Positions 4,025 to 23,140 of a stretch of 31,659 nucleotides of DNA are shown in pieces (the stretch's first letter is position 1; each line of letters begins with the position of its first letter). The stretch is from IMG/VR virus record IMGVR_UViG_3300025133_000411, positions 1 to 31,659 of that record; one strand, written 5' to 3'. The DNA comes from a virus. A model generated the notes under the pieces. It was not told where the DNA came from, did no database searches, and was given only the letters and a program-made list of their open reading frames with translations. Position numbers and translations under genes: made by a program.

Positions 4025-5441
4025 AATTTACGGTCCACCAGGGACAGGTAAAACTTTTAGATTAATACGTAGAGTCAAAGCGTATGTAAGAACAGGTACA
4101 CCTTATCACAAGATAGGTTACTTTGCCTTTACCAAGAAAGCTGCGGGGGAAGCAAGAAAGAGAATAGGTGTGTCGGAGAAAAAAGTTCCATACTTTCAAA
4201 CGCTACACGCCTTCTGTTTTCATCTGCTTGGATTAACCGAAGATAAAGTTATGCAGCCCTATCATTACGAAGAGTTAGGTAAAATATTAAATATTCGTGT
4301 AAACTTTTCTGACAAATATAATGAAGAAGAGACTCATTTTCTCACCTGTAATAATCCCTACTTCCAATTAATTGGAAGAGCTCTTAATAGAAGAACCACC
4401 ATACGAGAAGAGTTTGATAGAAACGAACATGATAAAAAAGAAATTGATTGGTATACTTTAAAACACATAGCTATAAATCTTAAAGAATTTAAAGAGAAGA
4501 ATCACATCTTAGATTTTAATGATATGATTGAAATGATTTTAGATTTGCCTCCAGAGAAGATGCCCACTTTTAAAGCTGTCTTTATTGATGAAGCCCAAGA
4601 CTTATCTCCTTTGCAATGGAAACTATATGATAAATTAAAAGATCATTGTGATCAAATATACTTAGCGGGTGATGACGATCAAGCTATCTTTGCGTGGGCG
4701 GGCGCTGATGTAAATAGATTTATAAATGAACCTGCAAAGGAAAGGGTACTTAGATACTCGCGTAGAATCTCTAGAGCCGTGCAACAGGAATCACAAATAC
4801 CAGTGAGTCGTATAGCAGGCATCAGGAAACATAAAGAATACCTACCTAGAGCGCAAGAGGGTCTTGCGTCTACAATTAGTAATCTAGGTCAAGTTGATTT
4901 AACTAAAGGAAAGTGGCTTATTCTTACTAGAACTAAAAGTAATCTCTTGGAGATTATGAAAGAATTAAAAAAGAAAAATTTATATTATCAAAGTAATAAA
5001 GGAAAAAGTTTTAAAGTAGGTTTATATAATGCAGCCGTAGCTTATACTAAGTGGACTATTGAAGGAGCATTAGAACCTAAAGAAATAAATGAAGTAAGAG
5101 AATTTATTCCAGATGTAAAATGGAATAAAAAAATTCCGTGGTATGATATATTTAATGCGGATCAAAAAGAAATTTTATACATAAGAAATTTAATAGCTAG
5201 TAATGAAAGATTAAACGAACGTGCCCGAATATGGTTGTCAACTATTCATGCGGCAAAAGGAGGTGAAGAAGATAATGTAATTTTATCTTTACATCAAGGA
5301 AGTAAAGTTCAAAAAGGAATTAGATTAAGTATTGACAAACAGGATGAGGAGAATAGAGTGTGGTATGTTGGCATCACGAGAGCAAGAAATAATCTATATA
5401 AACTAAAAGCAAAAAAGAAAATAAAGGAGTATCAACTATGA
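4008..5441 (+). CDS. UvrD/Rep-like superfamily 1 DNA helicase
   Basis: This 477-residue SF1A helicase has all core motifs. They are Walker A GPPGTGKT (9-16), motif Ia around YFAFTKKAA, motif II VFIDEAQD (191-198), motif III GDDDQAIFAWAGA (221-233), motif V STIHAAKGGEEDNV (411-424) and motif VI RVWYVGITRAR (450-460). It is shorter than cellular UvrD (about 720 residues), with reduced 1B/2B subdomains. It should unwind DNA 3' to 5' using ATP. Since no DnaB-like helicase is visible in the window, it may be the working replication helicase or may assist recombination. It overlaps the glycosyltransferase by 17 bases and DUF3310 by 4. Confidence 0.92.
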   Translation: MEKIHKIYGPPGTGKTFRLIRRVKAYVRTGTPYHKIGYFAFTKKAAGEARKRIGVSEKKVPYFQTLHAFCFHLLGLTEDKVMQPYHYEELGKILNIRVNFSDKYNEEETHFLTCNNPYFQLIGRALNRRTTIREEFDRNEHDKKEIDWYTLKHIAINLKEFKEKNHILDFNDMIEMILDLPPEKMPTFKAVFIDEAQDLSPLQWKLYDKLKDHCDQIYLAGDDDQAIFAWAGADVNRFINEPAKERVLRYSRRISRAVQQESQIPVSRIAGIRKHKEYLPRAQEGLASTISNLGQVDLTKGKWLILTRTKSNLLEIMKELKKKNLYYQSNKGKSFKVGLYNAAVAYTKWTIEGALEPKEINEVREFIPDVKWNKKIPWYDIFNADQKEILYIRNLIASNERLNERARIWLSTIHAAKGGEEDNVILSLHQGSKVQKGIRLSIDKQDEENRVWYVGITRARNNLYKLKAKKKIKEYQL

Positions 5442-11003: not shown

Positions 11004-11224
11004 AATTTTTTAAAAACATTATTTGTAAAATTTTTGGCATAAATCAATGTAAATGCCCACCTGAGACAAAAGCAGTTCCCAATTCCTGGGGAATTACTGC
11101 TCCAGTGAAAAACAAAGGTTATTGGGACAACATTGGTCACTGTAAAAAACACAGTAGCTATAAAGTTAGTTGTTTAGACTGTAACAGGGCTATGAAAAAT
11201 AAAAGATGGAGTAAGAAAAAATAG
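11000..11224 (+). CDS. Small Cys-containing hypothetical protein
   Basis: Seventy-four residues with an amphipathic N-terminus (MKFFKNIICKIFGI), a CKC motif, and later HCKKH and CLDC motifs that could form one zinc site (C17/C19 with C58/C61-type spacing). GGAGG sits 4 bases before the ATG. The gene overlaps its upstream neighbour by four bases and is last of this unit; a 72-base gap with promoter-like sequence follows. Function unknown; a zinc-stabilised membrane-proximal or RNA-binding protein is possible. Confidence 0.65.
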   Translation: MKFFKNIICKIFGINQCKCPPETKAVPNSWGITAPVKNKGYWDNIGHCKKHSSYKVSCLDCNRAMKNKRWSKKK

Positions 11225-13910: not shown

Positions 13911-14053
13911 AAAAAAGAATTATAAGTGCGTTAGTAGGCGTCCAAGTTCAGCAGTATTGCGTTCCACTGTACGTCAGCGATGATGGGCAACCTAGCGACA
14001 AAAGCGCCGCCAGCTACGTGAGTACATGCATGGAAAGCGTAGGGGCCGAATGA
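13907..14053 (+). CDS. Small hypothetical protein (48 residues)
   Basis: Starting in the ATGA overlap with the previous gene and ending in an ATGA overlap with the next, this 48-residue ORF has a short basic and hydrophobic N-terminus (KKRIISALVGVQVQ) and a Ser/Asp-rich tail with two Cys. The perfect overlaps at both ends and the GAGGGAG upstream support translation. I do not recognise a family. The base composition is visibly more GC-rich (GCGCCGCC near 14002) than its surroundings. Confidence 0.5.
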   Translation: MKKRIISALVGVQVQQYCVPLYVSDDGQPSDKSAASYVSTCMESVGAE

Positions 14054-14556: not shown

Positions 14557-15215
14557 TTAAAGGAGACAGCAGCGAATATAATTTTTTAGCTAGATGGACT
14601 AAAGAATTAAGACCTCAAGACTTTTATCTTACTGTAGAGATAGGTGTTCGTGAAGGTTACAGTAGTAATATTATCATGGAGATGTTGAAAGATAGAAATC
14701 ATTTTCACATTGGTATCGATCCTTATGGAGATTTACTTTACAAACATCTGGATAAGCAAGGCGTTGTTGATGCAAAAGGACAAATGCCATTTTGGACAGA
14801 CTTTAAAGGTAAACGGTTAGTGAATGAAGATGGTACTCCAAAGATTCCCACATATCCTAATTCCATGAAACAAAACTTTTTTAGTGAGTTTAAATATCAT
14901 GAAAACTTTACATTGTTTCAATTAGAAGACACAGAATATTTTAATGCGTTTGGGGGAGGCGTTCCAATTTATAAAAATGGTAAGAAAAAAATAATTAATA
15001 CTTATGATTTAATATTTTTTGATGGTCCTCACACTACAGAAAAAGTTATGGAAGAAACTGTCTTTTTTGGACCAAGATCTAGAATAGGCACTCGATTTAT
15101 ATTTGATGACATCCACGCTTATGACATGAGTATTATTGCGTATTGTCTAGAAACATTTGGATTTAAAACAATAGAAGTAGGAGGCAAAAAAATATGCTTA
15201 GAGAAACAGACGTAG
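14553..15215 (+). CDS. SAM-dependent methyltransferase-like protein (class I)
   Basis: This 220-residue protein shows a Rossmann methyltransferase pattern. VEIGVREGYSS (28-38) is the glycine-rich SAM loop, FHIGIDPYG (51-59) the motif II acidic end, and TYDLIFFDGPHTTEKV the motif IV region, followed by FIFDDIHAYDM. The style matches the Methyltransf_24 class that modifies small molecules, sugars or peptides rather than typical DNA methylases (no DPPY or PC motif). It overlaps the GIY-YIG gene by four bases and the LAGLIDADG gene by 22. Substrate unknown. Confidence 0.75.
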   Translation: MIKGDSSEYNFLARWTKELRPQDFYLTVEIGVREGYSSNIIMEMLKDRNHFHIGIDPYGDLLYKHLDKQGVVDAKGQMPFWTDFKGKRLVNEDGTPKIPTYPNSMKQNFFSEFKYHENFTLFQLEDTEYFNAFGGGVPIYKNGKKKIINTYDLIFFDGPHTTEKVMEETVFFGPRSRIGTRFIFDDIHAYDMSIIAYCLETFGFKTIEVGGKKICLEKQT

Positions 15216-15619
15216 CTTACTTGGCAGGACTCTTTGATGGGGAGGGGTCGGTTTACTATAAACAAACTAAACAAGTTAGACACAATAGAAAAGGAAAACC
15301 CACACATAATATCTGGGTAATTAGAATGGAGATTGCCATGACTGATGAGTCTATCATTCGCTGGGTACATGAGTTTACTGGCTGCGGATCGTCTGGCGAA
15401 AGGAAAGTTCCAAAAGGAAGGAAGAAACAATGGCGCTGGCGTTGTGCCCACAGAGATGCTTATTACGTCGCCCGCTTAATTTGGCCATATGTGCATGTTA
15501 AACTACCAAAAATAAATCAAATAATAGCTCATTACTCGAGAGAGAAATTAAAAGAAAATAACATTGTCAACCTAAAGGAGTACAGACATGCCAATATGGA
15601 ACGGAAAGTCAAAATTTAA
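15194..15619 (+). CDS. LAGLIDADG homing endonuclease, free-standing
   Basis: A 141-residue protein with a single LAGLIDADG motif, YLAGLFDGEGSV (9-20), followed by alternating basic strands and a helical C-terminus (VHVKLPKINQIIAHY). One motif means it would act as a homodimer cutting a near-palindromic site of about 20 bp. It is not inside an intron: it overlaps the methyltransferase by 22 bases and the exonuclease by 32. The tail of the gene overlaps the start of the exonuclease, which suggests insertion between the two followed by fusion to the existing junction. Confidence 0.85.
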   Translation: MLRETDVAYLAGLFDGEGSVYYKQTKQVRHNRKGKPTHNIWVIRMEIAMTDESIIRWVHEFTGCGSSGERKVPKGRKKQWRWRCAHRDAYYVARLIWPYVHVKLPKINQIIAHYSREKLKENNIVNLKEYRHANMERKVKI

Positions 15620-17690: not shown

Positions 17691-18056
17691 GTGAAACCAG
17701 AACGTAAACTCTGGTATGATCTTAAGAAAAATTCGACAACAATTAGCTGGACAAGGCTTGAAAATAGTGCTGCATTTGGCACTCCTGACTTATTGGGTTA
17801 TAATTGTGGCGGCCACTTTTTTACCGTAGAGCTTAAGGTCACTAGAGGAAACACAGTTAGCTTCTCTCCGCATCAAATCGCGTTTCACGTGAAACATCCA
17901 AACAACTCATTTATTATGGTTAAGGCCCTCAGCCTTAACCTTGTAAAACTTTATGAAGGAAAGTTTATCAAGGAGCTTGATGCTTGTGGCTTGAAGCTTG
18001 AGCCTTGCAGCTTGGGGCTTGAAGCTTGCGTCAGGACTTTTGAGAACCTGAACTAG
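17691..18056 (+). CDS. VRR-NUC/PD-(D/E)XK nuclease-like protein, GTG start
   Basis: This 121-residue protein has the compact VRR-NUC order: SWTRLENSAAFGTPDLLGY (the G-x-PDL motif), GGHFFTVELKV (E-x-K catalytic pair), then SFSPHQIAFHVKH. It would cut branched or double-stranded DNA, probably during recombination or replication. A GTG start follows AAGGGGG. Two features are odd. The codons for FHVKH contain a parS-like palindrome (17881-17896), and the last 25-30 residues are encoded by an NNGCTTG tandem array with period 7 (17973-18028), so the C-terminus is repeat-derived and Leu/Cys-rich. Confidence 0.8.
   Translation: MKPERKLWYDLKKNSTTISWTRLENSAAFGTPDLLGYNCGGHFFTVELKVTRGNTVSFSPHQIAFHVKHPNNSFIMVKALSLNLVKLYEGKFIKELDACGLKLEPCSLGLEACVRTFENLN
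17881..17896. promoter_or_regulatory. parS-like ParB-binding palindrome
   Basis: CGTTTCACGTGAAACA contains the perfect 14-bp palindrome GTTTCACGTGAAAC (17882-17895) and differs from the canonical bacterial parS (TGTTTCACGTGAAACA) only in the first base. Alphaproteobacterial and Bacillus ParB recognise this core. It lies within the VRR-NUC coding sequence, in the codons for FHVKH. Confidence 0.6.
17918..17940. repeat. Perfect 9-bp inverted repeat inside the nuclease gene
   Basis: GGTTAAGGC (17918-17926) and GCCTTAACC (17932-17940) are exact reverse complements around CCTCA, forming a stable hairpin 22 bases beyond the parS-like site. It may act in the mRNA or in DNA of the switch region. Confidence 0.6.
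17973..18028 (+). repeat. NNGCTTG heptamer array, first block
   Basis: Eight consecutive 7-base units of the form NNGCTTG (gagcttg, atgcttg, tggcttg, aagcttg, agccttg, cagcttg, gggcttg, aagcttg) run without gaps. Only one unit deviates in the core (ccttg). The block encodes the C-terminal part of the VRR-NUC-like protein. Confidence 0.85.
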
Positions 18057-18061
18057 GTTCT
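18043..18061 (+). terminator. Hairpin at the end of the nuclease gene
   Basis: AGAACCT (18043-18049) pairs with AGGTTCT (18055-18061) around a five-base loop; the TAG stop (18054-18056) lies at the loop edge. A short GGTTT follows. It separates the first and second heptamer blocks. Confidence 0.45.
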
Positions 18062-18066
18062 GGTTT

Positions 18067-18153
18067 ACGCTTGTCGCTTGAAGCTTGTCGCTTCCGCTTG
18101 TGGCTTGAAGCTTGACGCTTCTGCTTGTTGCTTGCAGCTGCTTGTCGCTTCAT
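18067..18153 (+). repeat. NNGCTTG heptamer array, second block
   Basis: About twelve units with GCTTG/GCTTC cores, mostly with period 7 (acgcttg, tcgcttg, aagcttg, tcgcttc, tggcttg, aagcttg, acgcttc, ttgcttg, tcgcttc) and a few 6- or 10-base steps. It fills most of the 153-base gap between the VRR-NUC gene and the minus-strand GP88-like gene. No gene is supported here. Confidence 0.8.
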
Positions 18154-18870: not shown

Positions 18871-18899
18871 TTGACATCTCCTAAATTATCCTATATAAT
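18871..18899 (+). promoter_or_regulatory. Perfect consensus promoter with no coding sequence behind it
   Basis: TTGACA (18871-18876), 17 bp, TATAAT (18894-18899) is an exact sigma-70 consensus. The -10 is embedded in CCTATATAATAGG and overlaps the nonamer TATCCTATA (18887-18895). It is nearly identical to the promoter at 20390-20418 from the spacer through to the -10. The next plus-strand reading frame of credible length is 1.6 kb away. Confidence 0.85.
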
Positions 18900-18935
18900 A
18901 GGGGCGGGCGGCCGGGGAATATATATTCATTAAAT

Positions 18936-18950
18936 ACAACCTCAGGTTGT
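18936..18950. repeat. 15-bp palindromic unit, copy 1
   Basis: ACAACCTCAGGTTGT is a perfect 7-1-7 palindrome. Variants recur at 19040, 19055, 20453 and 22928. Confidence 0.75.
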
Positions 18951-19007
18951 GCTTGTAGCTTGGAGCTTGGCGCTGCTTGGGGCTTGGGGCTTGAAGCTTG
19001 TAGCTTA
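18951..19007 (+). repeat. NNGCTTG heptamer array, third block
   Basis: About eight units (tagcttg, gagcttg, gcgctgcttg, gggcttg, gggcttg, aagcttg, tagctta) continue the family seen at 17973 and 18067, on the same strand and 0.8 kb away, on the other side of the GP88-like gene. It lies in a stretch without a gene. Confidence 0.8.
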
Positions 19008-19031
19008 GAATCATTCTAAAGAAAAATTTTT

Positions 19032-19163: not shown

Positions 19164-19334
19164 CTAATTCTCTTCTTCATCTGCATATGCTGTGATGTAA
19201 TCTCCCAGATTCATTTTAACCTGCATCATTGCTTCATTGCAGGCTTCTTCTTCATCCTCTGCATCAAAAACTAAATCAAAGTTTTCAACCCATTTCTCAT
19301 CTACTTCTAATGATACTCTGTATTTTTTAGTCAT
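19164..19334 (-). CDS. Small acidic protein
   Basis: Fifty-six residues on the minus strand, with a start overlapping the stop of the preceding gene (TAATG). The N-terminal strand (TKKYRVSLEVDEKW) is followed by a very acidic stretch (DAEDEEEACNEAMMQVK) and an acidic end (YADEEEN). Strongly negative charge is typical of phage DNA mimics or partners of basic proteins, but no family is recognised. It must be translated by coupling to the gene at 19334-19897. Confidence 0.7.
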   Translation of the reverse strand: MTKKYRVSLEVDEKWVENFDLVFDAEDEEEACNEAMMQVKMNLGDYITAYADEEEN

Positions 19335-20299: not shown

Positions 20300-20310
20300 G
20301 CCATTAGGAT

Positions 20311-20339
20311 ACTATAGGACTATGGCATAACTAAGGCAA
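20311..20339 (-). promoter_or_regulatory. Promoter of the 90-residue gene
   Basis: On the minus strand, TTGCCT (20339-20334), 17 bp and TATAGT (20316-20311) predict a start close to 20304, about five bases before the ATG. AGGATA and CCTATA elements overlap the -10, as in the other promoters of this region. Confidence 0.6.
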
Positions 20340-20389
20340 ATACAAAAATATTTTCTACCTGCAGTTGAGCGCCTGCGACAAAATAGTTC

Positions 20390-20418
20390 TTGACTTATCC
20401 TAAATTATCCTATATAAT
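20390..20418 (+). promoter_or_regulatory. Near-consensus promoter, twin of the one at 18871
   Basis: TTGACT (20390-20395), 17 bp, TATAAT (20413-20418), with nonamer TATCCTATA (20406-20414). From CCTAAATTATCC to TATAAT it is identical to the promoter at 18871-18899. It points into a G-rich stretch with no credible gene before the separate promoter at 20487. Confidence 0.8.
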
Positions 20419-20478
20419 ATAAGGGTGGAGTGGGCGGGCTAGTAAGGGCTATACAACTATAGGTTGAATTTTTTTTAA
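20419..20478 (+). ncRNA. Candidate short RNA with G-quadruplex motif and T-run
   Basis: Right behind the twin promoter, four GGG tracts (20423-20425, 20432-20434, 20436-20438, 20446-20448) with loops of 6, 1 and 7 bases form a canonical G-quadruplex pattern. The 15-bp element ACAACTATAGGTTGA (20453-20467) follows, then a run of eight T (20469-20476). A short stem plus T-run is a terminator-like end, so the unit could release an RNA of about 50 bases. Confidence 0.4.
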
Positions 20479-20486
20479 ATAAAGAT

Positions 20487-20515
20487 TTGACAATATACAT
20501 AAAATAGTATAGGAT
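20487..20515 (+). promoter_or_regulatory. Promoter of the leaderless gene at 20524
   Basis: TTGACA (20487-20492), 17 bp, TAGGAT (20510-20515) within the nonamer TATAGGATA (20508-20516). The predicted start is near 20522, two bases before the ATG. Confidence 0.55.
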
Positions 20516-20523
20516 ATTTATAT

Positions 20524-20658
20524 ATGCAAAACAAAAATAATAACCTAACTTATTGGTGGAACTTACCGATTGATGAGTTAGAAGAAATGGCAGACGAAAA
20601 TGGTAAGATAAAAAAACAAGAACAAGAAAAAGAAAGCGAGGAAGAAAACAATGAGTAA
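20524..20658 (+). CDS. Small acidic protein, apparently leaderless
   Basis: Forty-four residues: a Trp-rich head (NNNLTYWWNLPIDELEEMA) and a Lys/Glu-rich helical tail. The predicted transcript begins only a couple of bases before the ATG and no ribosome site is visible. Its 3' end carries the ribosome site GAAAGCGAGGAA of the following gene and overlaps it by eight bases. I do not recognise a family. Confidence 0.6.
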   Translation: MQNKNNNLTYWWNLPIDELEEMADENGKIKKQEQEKESEEENNE

Positions 20659-21640
20659 AATAAGAATGAATACTGAATTCAGAAATAAAATTTTGAATAG
20701 GTATATTGAAAGTGCAGAAACAGAAACAACACAAGAGCAACAAGCTTTTCTTCAAGCTAGAGAAAAGGTTGATGAAATATACCCACAGGCTTTTGAACTT
20801 GCAACAAGAGTTGTTGAAAGAGCATATCCAGAAGAAGATGTTGATACTTGCAAAAGTTTAAAACAAAAATATGGACAACCTTTAGATGTTGTAGCAAAAG
20901 ATAAATGCTTTTATTTCTCTTATGCAAAAGACCAATTAGAAGAAGATGAAGATGAAAGAGATAGAAATATATCTGAACATTTTGATTTTGGTTTATTTGG
21001 TAGTACAGGCACAAGCGAATATAGTGATGATACAGGAAAACAATTTGCTTATGCTTATAAAAGAGAAGAACTAAAAGCAAAAGACTGTAATCCAGATATA
21101 CTTGCACAACAAAATGGCAAGGAAGATAATCCACATAAAACTAAACACATTGACGCAAACGACAAGGCACTAGGGTATTCAAGATATTCTAGTTATAATT
21201 CTGATAATGATAATTCAGTTGGAATGACAAGAGAGTTTGATAGTCAATTTTATTTAGATATTATTGGAACATCACATTGTCGTTCAAGAACTATTGCTTG
21301 TAATAAACAAGAGTTTCAAGTTTTCCAAATGTTGAAACAAGCAAAAGCAAATGTCATTACTTGTCATCAAAAATGGATTGATAGTATCGAGAAACAAAAA
21401 CAAGCTATGAAAACAGGATTGAAAGCTTATAGATATTTAAGCGAGGGTGTTGAGTTGATGAAAGAACTAGGCATTGAACTTGATGAGGCAGAACTTGTTA
21501 GATGTAATTCAACAGGACTGACAATCTATAACCCACAAAATCTTGCTAGTATGATTAAAGGTATGAAGAATACTACAATGACAAGAGAGCAGAAAATAGC
21601 AATCAGAAAGGAATATGAAAAACAAAATAACTTAAATTAA
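20651..21640 (+). CDS. Hypothetical phage protein, possibly Nmad5-like
   Basis: This 329-residue protein is the largest of the 20-23 kb region. The N-terminal 90 residues are helical (FRNKILNRYIESA..., then ARTRVVERAYPEE-like helix and KSLKQKYG), the middle (100-200) is acidic and probably flexible, and the C-terminal 120 residues are helical with QKWIDSIEKQKQAM and LRKEYEKQ-like ends. The N-terminal layout slightly recalls phage Nmad5 (nucleotide-modification associated) proteins, but I cannot verify it. GAAAGCGAGGAA precedes its ATG. Codon use is rich in gaa/aaa, like its neighbours. Confidence 0.7.
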   Translation: MSKIRMNTEFRNKILNRYIESAETETTQEQQAFLQAREKVDEIYPQAFELATRVVERAYPEEDVDTCKSLKQKYGQPLDVVAKDKCFYFSYAKDQLEEDEDERDRNISEHFDFGLFGSTGTSEYSDDTGKQFAYAYKREELKAKDCNPDILAQQNGKEDNPHKTKHIDANDKALGYSRYSSYNSDNDNSVGMTREFDSQFYLDIIGTSHCRSRTIACNKQEFQVFQMLKQAKANVITCHQKWIDSIEKQKQAMKTGLKAYRYLSEGVELMKELGIELDEAELVRCNSTGLTIYNPQNLASMIKGMKNTTMTREQKIAIRKEYEKQNNLN

Positions 21641-21643
21641 CTA

Positions 21644-21672
21644 TTGACAATATTGGGATTATGTTATATAAT
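21644..21672 (+). promoter_or_regulatory. Perfect consensus promoter
   Basis: TTGACA (21644-21649), exact 17-bp spacer, TATAAT (21667-21672), 37 bases upstream of the ATG at 21709. It is embedded in the large palindrome 21650-21680. Confidence 0.88.
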
Positions 21673-21680
21673 CCCAATAT
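21650..21680. promoter_or_regulatory. Palindromic operator over the -10
   Basis: ATATTGGGATTAT (21650-21662) and ATAATCCCAATAT (21668-21680) are perfect 13-bp arms around GTTAT. The right arm contains most of the -10, so a bound protein would block the promoter at 21644. Confidence 0.75.
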
Positions 21681-21708
21681 AAAAACAAACAAAAGAAAGC
21701 GAGAAATA

Positions 21709-21972
21709 ATGAAAATAGAAAACACACTTCAAGTTGGTACTAAGTTTATTATTACATATAGACCAATGACACATAAAGGCGAGTTAAGAAAAAAATTAAA
21801 AGACGATAAGAGAACTCGTTCAATAACTAGAAAAGCGCGTTGGAATGAAAAATGCAAAGTAGTGAGAGATAAAATAACTGATAAGATTAGATATATTACT
21901 TATTGGGATTTAGAGGCAAATAATTATAGGTGTGCAGTCGGTCAAGCTTTTATTACAAGTGAGGTCGCATAA
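21709..21972 (+). CDS. Small basic hypothetical protein
   Basis: Eighty-seven residues, strongly basic in the centre (RKKLKDDKRTRSITRKARWNEK) with beta-strand segments (TKFIITYRPM, IRYITYWDLE) and a short C-terminus. It might form a small basic fold binding nucleic acid. The start at ATG 21709 follows GAAAGCGAG; a longer in-frame start would lie within the promoter and is rejected. It overlaps the next gene by one base. Function unknown. Confidence 0.75.
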   Translation: MKIENTLQVGTKFIITYRPMTHKGELRKKLKDDKRTRSITRKARWNEKCKVVRDKITDKIRYITYWDLEANNYRCAVGQAFITSEVA

Positions 21973-22316
21973 TGCCCAATAAACATTTTTGCCAAGGTCC
22001 GAATTGTCATACAAATCCAACTACAGATAGATTTCTAAAATCTAAAGGCATAATTCGTGGGCGCTATGCATATGCTAAAATAGATGATACTGAAAATAGA
22101 TATGGTTGGAGATATCCAGACTCAGATAAATACTTTTGTAGCCAAGGCTGTAAGAATGAATGGTTGAATACTCATATGGAAAGTATTGCAAGAAGAACAT
22201 TGCCACCATTTATTGAGCATAGAAGAATAACCGAGGGATATGAAAAAGCAACTGAACAACATTATGGACGTAATTATTCAACCATTAAAAAAATACAGGG
22301 GGGTGCGACAGAATAG
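21972..22316 (+). CDS. Zinc-finger protein (TRASH/MYM-like)
   Basis: A 114-residue protein with CQGPNCHTN near the N-terminus and KYFCSQGCKNEWLNTH about 45 residues later, giving a four-Cys zinc site followed by an amphipathic helix, similar to TRASH or MYM-type fingers. The CQGPNC word recurs in marine phage proteins as I recall. The remaining part is charged and helical. It starts on the last base of the preceding gene, so the two are co-expressed from the promoter at 21644. It probably binds nucleic acid or a host regulatory protein. Confidence 0.78.
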   Translation: MPNKHFCQGPNCHTNPTTDRFLKSKGIIRGRYAYAKIDDTENRYGWRYPDSDKYFCSQGCKNEWLNTHMESIARRTLPPFIEHRRITEGYEKATEQHYGRNYSTIKKIQGGATE

Positions 22317-22319
22317 CTA

Positions 22320-22348
22320 TTGACATTTAGGAGATAATAGGATATAAT
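22320..22348 (+). promoter_or_regulatory. Perfect consensus promoter
   Basis: TTGACA (22320-22325), 17 bp, TATAAT (22343-22348), preceded by CTA as in the promoters at 21644 and 22589. AATAGGATATAAT carries a one-base variant of the shared nonamer. The ATG at 22376 is about 20 bases after the predicted start, with AAAGGAG as ribosome site. Confidence 0.88.
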
Positions 22349-22375
22349 GGGAGCATAAATTAACAAAGGAGCGAC

Positions 22376-22585
22376 ATGACTAAAACACTTAAAAAAGAAT
22401 ATCAACCAGGCGGATCTAAAAGACAACAACTTTTAGAACAGGCAGTTGACTACTTAAGAAAACCAGGACAACTTCAAGGTGATAAACATCATTTTTGTTT
22501 GACTAATTTAATGATGACTGAGACAGAATATCTGGAAGCATTAAACAAGGCAACTAACGGAGGATTAGAAGCCTGGGCAAATTAA
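22376..22585 (+). CDS. Small hypothetical protein
   Basis: Sixty-nine residues, basic at the N-terminus (TKTLKKEYQPGGSKRQQ) and helical after it (LLEQAVDYLRKPGQL, TETEYLEALNKATNGG). AAAGGAG lies at a good distance. It has its own consensus promoter and a further consensus promoter starts right after its stop, so it is a single-gene unit. No family is recognised. Confidence 0.72.
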   Translation: MTKTLKKEYQPGGSKRQQLLEQAVDYLRKPGQLQGDKHHFCLTNLMMTETEYLEALNKATNGGLEAWAN

Positions 22586-22588
22586 CTA

Positions 22589-22617
22589 TTGACTTTACTC
22601 CCATTATAGGATATAAT
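22589..22617 (+). promoter_or_regulatory. Near-consensus promoter
   Basis: TTGACT (22589-22594), 17 bp, TATAAT (22612-22617), nonamer TATAGGATA (22605-22613). It starts four bases after the previous stop codon and drives the gene at 22642. Confidence 0.87.
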
Positions 22618-22623
22618 GGGAGT
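22597..22623. promoter_or_regulatory. Palindromic operator over the -10
   Basis: ACTCCCATTAT (22597-22607) and ATAATGGGAGT (22613-22623) are perfect 11-bp arms around AGGAT. As at 21650, the right arm includes most of TATAAT, so occupancy would exclude the polymerase. Confidence 0.75.
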
Positions 22624-22641
22624 ATTGAAAGCGAGGAAAAT

Positions 22642-22893
22642 ATGAAAACAATTAACTACAATAACAAGGAATACAAACTTCCTTTTGATGTTGCACTACC
22701 AGAAGATGCAACAGCAGAGGACACAGTAAGAAATAGATTTGGCGGTGAGTCATGCACATTGCCAGCGTTTGCAATCGCTGTCTATGATGTAATCATAGGC
22801 GCTGAGATGTTGCAAGATTATAAAACAGTAAGACAAGGTTTAGATTGGTTTAGTAGAAATTTTACTAAACAATATATGGTACTCTTAGACTAA
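22642..22893 (+). CDS. Conserved marine-phage hypothetical protein
   Basis: Eighty-three residues. The segments RNRFGGESCTLPAFAIAVYDVIIGAEM and LDWFSRNFTKQYMVLLD strongly recall a small protein widespread in marine phages, there usually beside other early genes. It should be a compact alpha-helical fold, soluble, with one Cys. GAAAGCGAGGAAAAT serves as ribosome site, the third occurrence of this leader in the region. Function not established. Confidence 0.82.
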   Translation: MKTINYNNKEYKLPFDVALPEDATAEDTVRNRFGGESCTLPAFAIAVYDVIIGAEMLQDYKTVRQGLDWFSRNFTKQYMVLLD

Positions 22894-22906
22894 AGAGTCT
22901 CGCTCC

Positions 22907-22933
22907 GGTTGTATGCATAAACTGCATACAACC
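22907..22933. terminator. 11-bp hairpin ending the accessory cluster
   Basis: GGTTGTATGCA (22907-22917) pairs with TGCATACAACC (22923-22933) around TAAAC, 14 bases after the stop of the gene at 22642. Copy 5 of the 15-bp unit (22928-22942) overlaps its right arm. Confidence 0.6.
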
Positions 22934-22942
22934 ACAGGTTGT
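22928..22942. repeat. 15-bp palindromic unit, copy 5
   Basis: ACAACCACAGGTTGT differs by one base from the copy at 18936. Copy 4 (ACAACTATAGGTTGA) is at 20453-20467 inside the candidate short RNA. Confidence 0.7.
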
Positions 22943-22959
22943 GCGCCGCTTCGCGGCGC
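22943..22959. terminator. Strong GC hairpin
   Basis: GCGCCGC (22943-22949) pairs perfectly with GCGGCGC (22953-22959) around TTC, followed by GCATCTTTCAT. Together with the previous hairpin it should isolate the early region from the structural arm. The rest of the gap to 23140 holds long T and A runs and no gene. Confidence 0.6.
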
Positions 22960-23140
22960 GCATCTTTCATAGAGGTACCAGACCCTCCATCAATTTTGAA
23001 ATTTTTTTAAAAACCTTTTTCTTTTTTTTAAAAAAGGGGTCCCAAAGTTTTACCTTTAGGGCTTGATTTACAGGTTTAAAGCCTTAAAATACCTTCTAAG
23101 GTTTCAAAATAACCCTGAAAAAATTTTGCAAAAAAATTTT

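Follow-up and report, generated by a model that had tools for sequence, protein, structure and literature searches.

Two of the single-gene promoters in the viral DNA analysed here lie within perfect palindromes that are probably RNA hairpins of the sense strand, each forming a 3′-end element of the upstream mRNA that has merged with the sigma70 promoter of the next gene. Comparison with related sequences describes a strand-specific, covarying hairpin that overlaps the −10 hexamer, depends on the upstream gene, lacks a U-tract, leaves the ribosome-binding site free and accompanies the turnover of gene cassettes.

The window, by which is meant the whole stretch of DNA analysed, comprises the 31,659 nt of IMG/VR virus record IMGVR_UViG_3300025133_000411. 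Among named phages it is closest to Pelagibacter phages HTVC027P and HTVC033P, hence not to T4-type myoviruses. HTVC027P, the closest, has 69.8% nucleotide identity to part of 20300-23000; its gp35 is 59% identical to the product of the gene at 20651-21640 (F0), and terminase genes are found in the same neighbourhood in both. Between gp35 and gp36, at about 19220-19265 of its record, it carries a unit of the same architecture that includes two G·U pairs. This phage has no RNA polymerase of its own and relies on the host enzyme from beginning to end, and no function is known for any of its early genes (PMC12753301). Use of the host polymerase is consistent with the consensus host-type promoters in the window. 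The relatives studied were about 200 SAR11-phage-like viral contigs with homologues of F0, including many close kin, so that the hairpin and gene counts given below are not independent events.

The cluster of interest lies on the + strand and is opened by a sigma70-type promoter, TTGACA-17-TAGGAT (20487..20515), which serves the genes at 20524-20658 and 20651-21640 and has no palindrome over its −10 (dyad score 5). F0 (20651..21640; 329 aa), the homologue of gp35, of unknown function, precedes the first hairpin-promoter, a 12/12 consensus TTGACA-17-TATAAT (21644..21672) that starts 3 nt past the F0 stop codon. The first cassette, F1 (21709..21972; 87 aa), has a weak, sub-threshold WYL_2 match; it overlaps the Cys-rich F3 (21972..22316; 114 aa), and the two are probably co-transcribed. 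A second promoter with the same 12/12 match (22320..22348) is without a hairpin (−2.1 kcal/mol) and lies ahead of the second cassette, F7 (22376..22585; 69 aa). Three nucleotides past the F7 stop codon is the third, TTGACT-17-TATAAT (11/12; 22589..22617), followed by the last cassette of the cluster, F4 (22642..22893; 83 aa). The sequence-only reading had described these three promoters as consensus or one base off and all preceded by CTA, and both points are borne out: CTATTGAC occurs at 21641, 22317 and 22586, with no other copy in the window on either strand.

The same reading placed two of the three within perfect palindromes, which is correct for 21644 and 22589. The first inverted repeat, ATATTGGGATTAT-gttat-ATAATCCCAATAT (21650..21680, +; 13+5+13 = 31 bp), spans the spacer, the −10 and the start region and is predicted to fold as a sense-strand RNA hairpin of −15.5 kcal/mol. 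The second, TACTCCCATTATA-gga-TATAATGGGAGTA (22596..22624, +; 13+3+13 = 29 bp), is predicted to do so at −17.5 kcal/mol. The 5-base centre ascribed to both holds for the first; in the second, pairing of ATTATA with TATAAT leaves a centre of 3 bases. As had also been claimed, the arms differ beyond this core (GGGATTAT vs CCCATTAT). First-order Markov simulations of the window gave an expectation of 0.02 repeats with arms of at least 13 per window, against the 2 observed. A back-to-back bidirectional promoter was considered and rejected, as no −35 was seen by eye on the far side of the stems. At the end of the cluster a stop-proximal hairpin without a promoter and without a U-tract, GGTTGTATGCA-taaac-TGCATACAACC, is found at 22907..22933 (+), and a second, terminator-like stem-loop at 22940..22962 (+). 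HTVC027P (L005, L401, L402) has U-less, promoter-less stop-proximal hairpins elsewhere too, for example TGTGGGGC-TTCG-GCCCCACA.

Several other elements were seen in and around this region. Strong + promoters at 18871 and 20390 form, with the cluster-opening promoter at 20487, context that the sequence-only reading omitted. The first two are consensus promoters on the strand opposite the neighbouring genes, and in the elements that they begin (18871-18990 and 20390-20478, +) each has a G-rich tract (aggggcgggcggccggggaa; ataagggtggagtgggcggg) behind it, together with a short ACAACC..GGTTGT hairpin; the latter element also contains a U-tract, at about 20468-20476. About 20 relatives share these elements (e.g. 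GGACGGTGGCTGGGGATGGTGG), which have no Rfam match and are candidate small RNAs that possibly form G-quadruplexes. TTGACA..TGTCAA palindromes, possibly face-to-face −35 elements, lie over cluster-opening −35 hexamers or at divergent junctions, e.g. TACTTGACACACTATCTAGTGTGTCAAGTA (L046:5140-5169, L321:3933, L304:1391, L329:2326, and upstream of gp35 in HTVC027P, L005 about 5180-5200). Dense degenerate GCTTGNNGCTTG repeats occupy 17960-18140 and 18930-19010, within and between genes, and similar repeats occur in HTVC027P and other relatives. Farther upstream, 13928-14047 (+) matches Rfam RF02976, ‘Flavobacterium-1 RNA’, at 62 bits, above the gathering score, and overlaps small ORFs; an ORF resembling a LAGLIDADG endonuclease, near the Pfam cut-off (15194-15619, +), lies right before a PD-(D/E)XK nuclease-like gene.

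The co-variation of the palindrome arms, whose absence from relatives would have gone against the sequence-only reading, proved to be strong. In 27 ungapped units with a 12-pair stem, 96.3% of the pairs are standard and 9 of the 12 show changes in both arms. Their covariation score of 0.499 compares with 0.157 for shuffles and at most 0.141 for slid controls, and four other dyad-centre classes agree. Variation in the −10 itself is compensated in the left arm (TATACT/AGTATA, TAAAAT/ATTTTA, TAGGAT/ATCCTA), and the further −10 variants TATTAT, TAATAT and TAAACT also have a matching left arm.

The mismatches in the arms indicate which strand folds. G·T accounts for 29 of them, in 12 distinct contexts, and A·C for 2. 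Both of the latter lie in L037, in chance hits whose promoters are poor, which leaves the contexts in genuine units at 12:0 (sign test p = 0.0005). Transitions in a Watson-Crick pair produce the two kinds of mismatch at equal frequency. The bias therefore implies that the sense strand folds, as RNA or as single-stranded DNA; single-stranded DNA, too, accommodates G-T more readily than A-C, which counts against reading the bias as RNA only. Imperfect units are predicted to fold at −16.2 kcal/mol on the sense strand and −11.8 kcal/mol on the other.

Taken together, the relatives fetched contain about 150 distinct promoter-palindrome units, whose left arms comprise 111 different sequences. TTGAC and a TANNNT −10 are conserved across about 140 units, the dyad centre lying mostly 0.5-2 bases ahead of the −10 hexamer. 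After the F0 stop codon nearly all of the closer relatives have TTGAC, a palindrome and an A-rich Shine-Dalgarno (SD) leader. That extended palindromes might be a general trait of phage promoters with a palindromic −10 was rejected, since in an unselected viral scan for TTGACA-N8-ATTATA-N3-TATAAT the palindrome extended by 0-3 pairs, as by chance, at 100 of 108 sites. The 8 that extend further comprise 6 in SAR11-phage-like contigs and one each in L235 and L190, other AT-rich phages, where the units likewise adjoin a stop codon. In L091, an unrelated phage, TTGACA-18-TAAAAT/TACAAT units on the minus strand at 11045, 8933 and 7259, apparently in non-coding stretches, have −10 changes matched in the left arm (CCAAAATTTTA / CCAAAATTGTA). 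A host origin of the units was rejected, none being present in 400 kb of SAR11 host genomes, which had been located with a SAR11 16S probe; a 2OG-oxygenase query for host relatives found nothing.

Whether a promoter has the hairpin depends on the gene before it. The F0 promoter has one in 7/7 cases when F0 follows F6, in L011-type genomes, and in 0/32 when F0 is first in its cluster. F1 has one in 98/99 cases after F0, F2 or F12, and in 0/6 when it comes first, as in the L011 type. For F2, F4 and F7 the hairpin is present in 3/44 cases after F3 and in 25/31 after other genes (p = 3e-11). Per-gene counts are given here; about a dozen of the 39 promoters scored as having no upstream gene overlap the coding end of F3. 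As the same downstream gene occurs with or without the hairpin according to its neighbour, the hairpin tracks the upstream gene and the position. F3 is an exception: it is an upstream gene, and yet the promoters following it usually have no hairpin. The −35 and the spacer fall within the end of the F3 coding sequence in many relatives, but not in the window. Several cluster-opening promoters retain the same right half with the left arm absent and lie just behind the hairpin and U-tract of a candidate small RNA. Homologues of F4 have a stop-proximal U-less stem (score 8 or more) in most of 30 distinct 3′ flanks; these hairpins are without a promoter, highly variable yet complementary, and their loops are often UAAC or UUC. 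Taken with the hairpins at F4 ends, the dependence on the upstream gene assigns the hairpin to the 3′ end of RNA running out of that gene, with the next promoter superimposed on it.

The cassettes themselves turn over. Nine families follow F0 in one relative or another (F1, F2, F5, F11, F12, F13, F18, F31, F32), with the hairpin in all but one case; a subset of relatives has F2 or F12, with its promoter, as an insertion separating F0 from F1, and F1 has moved to the front in L011-type genomes. The proposal of the sequence-only reading that these are modular accessory genes, each separately controlled, is thus supported at the level of the gene unit by insertion, loss and reordering of whole promoter-gene units.

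These features suggest how the element may work. Transcripts from the local promoter would start no earlier than the right arm, and since the left arm would be absent from them the hairpin would exist only in read-through RNA coming out of the upstream gene. We infer that such RNA exists and that the hairpin acts on its 3′ end, where it may be an exonuclease barrier, a processing site or a weak or assisted terminator for the upstream mRNA. A few bases past each stop codon would then serve as the combined end of one mRNA and start of the next, and repeated modules of promoter, hairpin and ribosome-binding site would amount to single-gene cassettes open to insertion, loss and reordering. Modules would presumably recombine through the hairpin.

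That the units are true terminators fused to promoters, the hairpin releasing host RNA polymerase before the next gene in the way reported for PeSL (promoter early stem-loop) hairpins of T4-type phages, is improbable. Their stop-proximal position, stems of about −16 kcal/mol and the absence of the hairpin where a hairpin and U-tract already precede the promoter would suit this role, and SAR11 genomes have Rho, which is compatible with assisted termination. However, in none of 143 units do the 8 nt that follow the stem contain as many as 5 T (mean 0.93 T), the flank there being A-rich, and the stem bases are AT-rich, whereas hairpins at SAR11 host gene ends often have U-tracts. The lack of a U-tract, unlike many host gene ends, makes simple intrinsic termination unlikely.

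Classical operators, with a dimeric phage or host repressor bound to the palindrome over the −10 and each gene controlled separately, were what the sequence-only reading proposed. Perfect dyads over the −10 are what such sites would look like, and TGGGAT/ATCCCA is common to many arms, but within one genome some units have this core in inverted form or another sequence in its place. An operator should be associated with the gene that it controls; these palindromes follow the upstream gene and not the regulated one, and cluster-opening promoters, where control would naturally be exerted, lack them. Arms such as GGGATTAT and CCCATTAT differ within one genome while their outer bases still covary, and a shared DNA-binding protein does not demand arms that are self-complementary yet differ. 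Mismatches that in genuine units are only G-T on the sense strand also speak against operators, as does the failure of the ribbon-helix-helix (RHH) regulator invoked by that reading to appear in Pfam scans of 40 window ORFs outside the structural genes after 23063. On these grounds operators are very unlikely.

Single-stranded DNA hairpins, acting as structure-recognised sites of recombination or exchange by an attC-like logic, or arising as an effect of DNA replication, are given equally little weight. A structure kept while its sequence varies, at the borders of cassettes that turn over, is in their favour, and G-T is tolerable in DNA. Against them, the first cassette has no hairpin on its upstream side and F3 none behind it, although both places would require a site, the orientation of the hairpin follows transcription even in the minus-strand unit of L039, and no recombinase-like partner was found.

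A translational lock of the T4 gene e type, in which the ribosome-binding site would be hidden in read-through RNA and free in local transcripts, shares the promoter within a hairpin (PMC3014915), but it is hardly credible when the SD is inside the stem in 1/143 units and otherwise lies outside it, SD and ATG beginning at medians of 7 and 19 nt beyond the stem, and when hairpins also end clusters with no cassette following. As remote is a functionless mutational by-product of template-switching quasi-palindrome correction, which would yield perfect arms of changing sequence but gives no reason for G-T over A-C (12:0), would not spare first promoters, and is at odds with the chance rate of extension at promoters elsewhere in viral contigs with the same inner palindrome. 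Such a process should also make hairpins equally frequent at promoters away from gene junctions, whereas they are concentrated at the junctions.

For a 3′-end element of the upstream mRNA, the results on the U-tract and the SD would leave 3′-end protection or processing, or termination helped by a factor. It is conceivable, and we put it forward tentatively, that U-less stop-proximal hairpins are general early-gene 3′-end-forming signals in these abundant SAR11 phages; termination or processing would then proceed via a host or phage factor, unlike U-tract intrinsic termination, and would be missed by terminator predictors. Although SAR11 phages rank with the most abundant marine viruses, their transcription signals are almost undescribed. 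Such promoter-hairpin units are described in none of the papers searched on this phage group, one of which reports no terminators in a SAR11 phage (PMC10504331). The unit offers a recognisable mark for the beginning and end of single-gene accessory cassettes, and it would illustrate how a sequence that looks like an operator can be an RNA element belonging to the preceding gene. It extends the idea of promoter/stem-loop cassettes beyond T4-type phages, and both cassette exchange and the insulation of transcripts can be tested with it in the cultured pair HTVC027P and HTCC1062.

Known systems share parts of this arrangement. In T7, intercistronic RNase III sites are hairpins between genes that define and protect individual mRNA 3′ ends beside promoters; those RNase III substrates have greater length, are related to one another in sequence and lie near T7-RNAP promoters, whereas here short perfect stems lie over host-type promoters. 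Promoters of the N4 virion RNA polymerase are short template-strand DNA hairpins read by the phage polymerase, and resemble these units in that a DNA inverted repeat centred near −12 belongs to the promoter. Here, in contrast, the hexamers are consensus sigma70 and the stems long and on the sense strand, and HTVC027P lacks an RNA polymerase (PMC12753301). The leader hairpins of T4 genes e, soc, 49 and I-TevI sequester the SD or AUG, and in gene e late promoters lie in the 5′ strand of the RNA hairpin (PMC3014915). Gene e is alike in that, with the promoter in the 5′ strand, read-through RNA alone can fold the hairpin; in the present units the stem ends before the SD, directly behind the upstream stop codon. 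The PeSL cassettes found in T4-type phages have reportedly been described by Arbiol in 2010 and Comeau in 2014. The PeSL is cited elsewhere as a composite promoter-terminator motif that mediates shuffling (PMC4503421), and the title of the 2014 paper speaks of ‘composite conserved promoter-terminator motifs’ (reference list of PMC5931544). As cited, the PeSL resembles the present units in joining a host-sigma70 promoter to a stem-loop, a pair repeated among small, functionally uncharacterised genes of a plastic region in which genes are shuffled between relatives. The corresponding features here are a strong sigma70-like promoter (11-12/12 with 17-bp spacers at three window sites), a stem-loop supported by covariation and G-T bias, and a position between small accessory genes whose shuffling it accompanies. 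From the PeSL so described the present units differ in overlapping the −10 itself, in having no U-tract, in arms that diverge freely with compensation, in their absence from cluster-opening promoters, and in belonging to SAR11 rather than T4-type phages. They may thus be regarded as analogues of the T4 PeSL cassettes, without a U-tract and with the stem laid over the −10.
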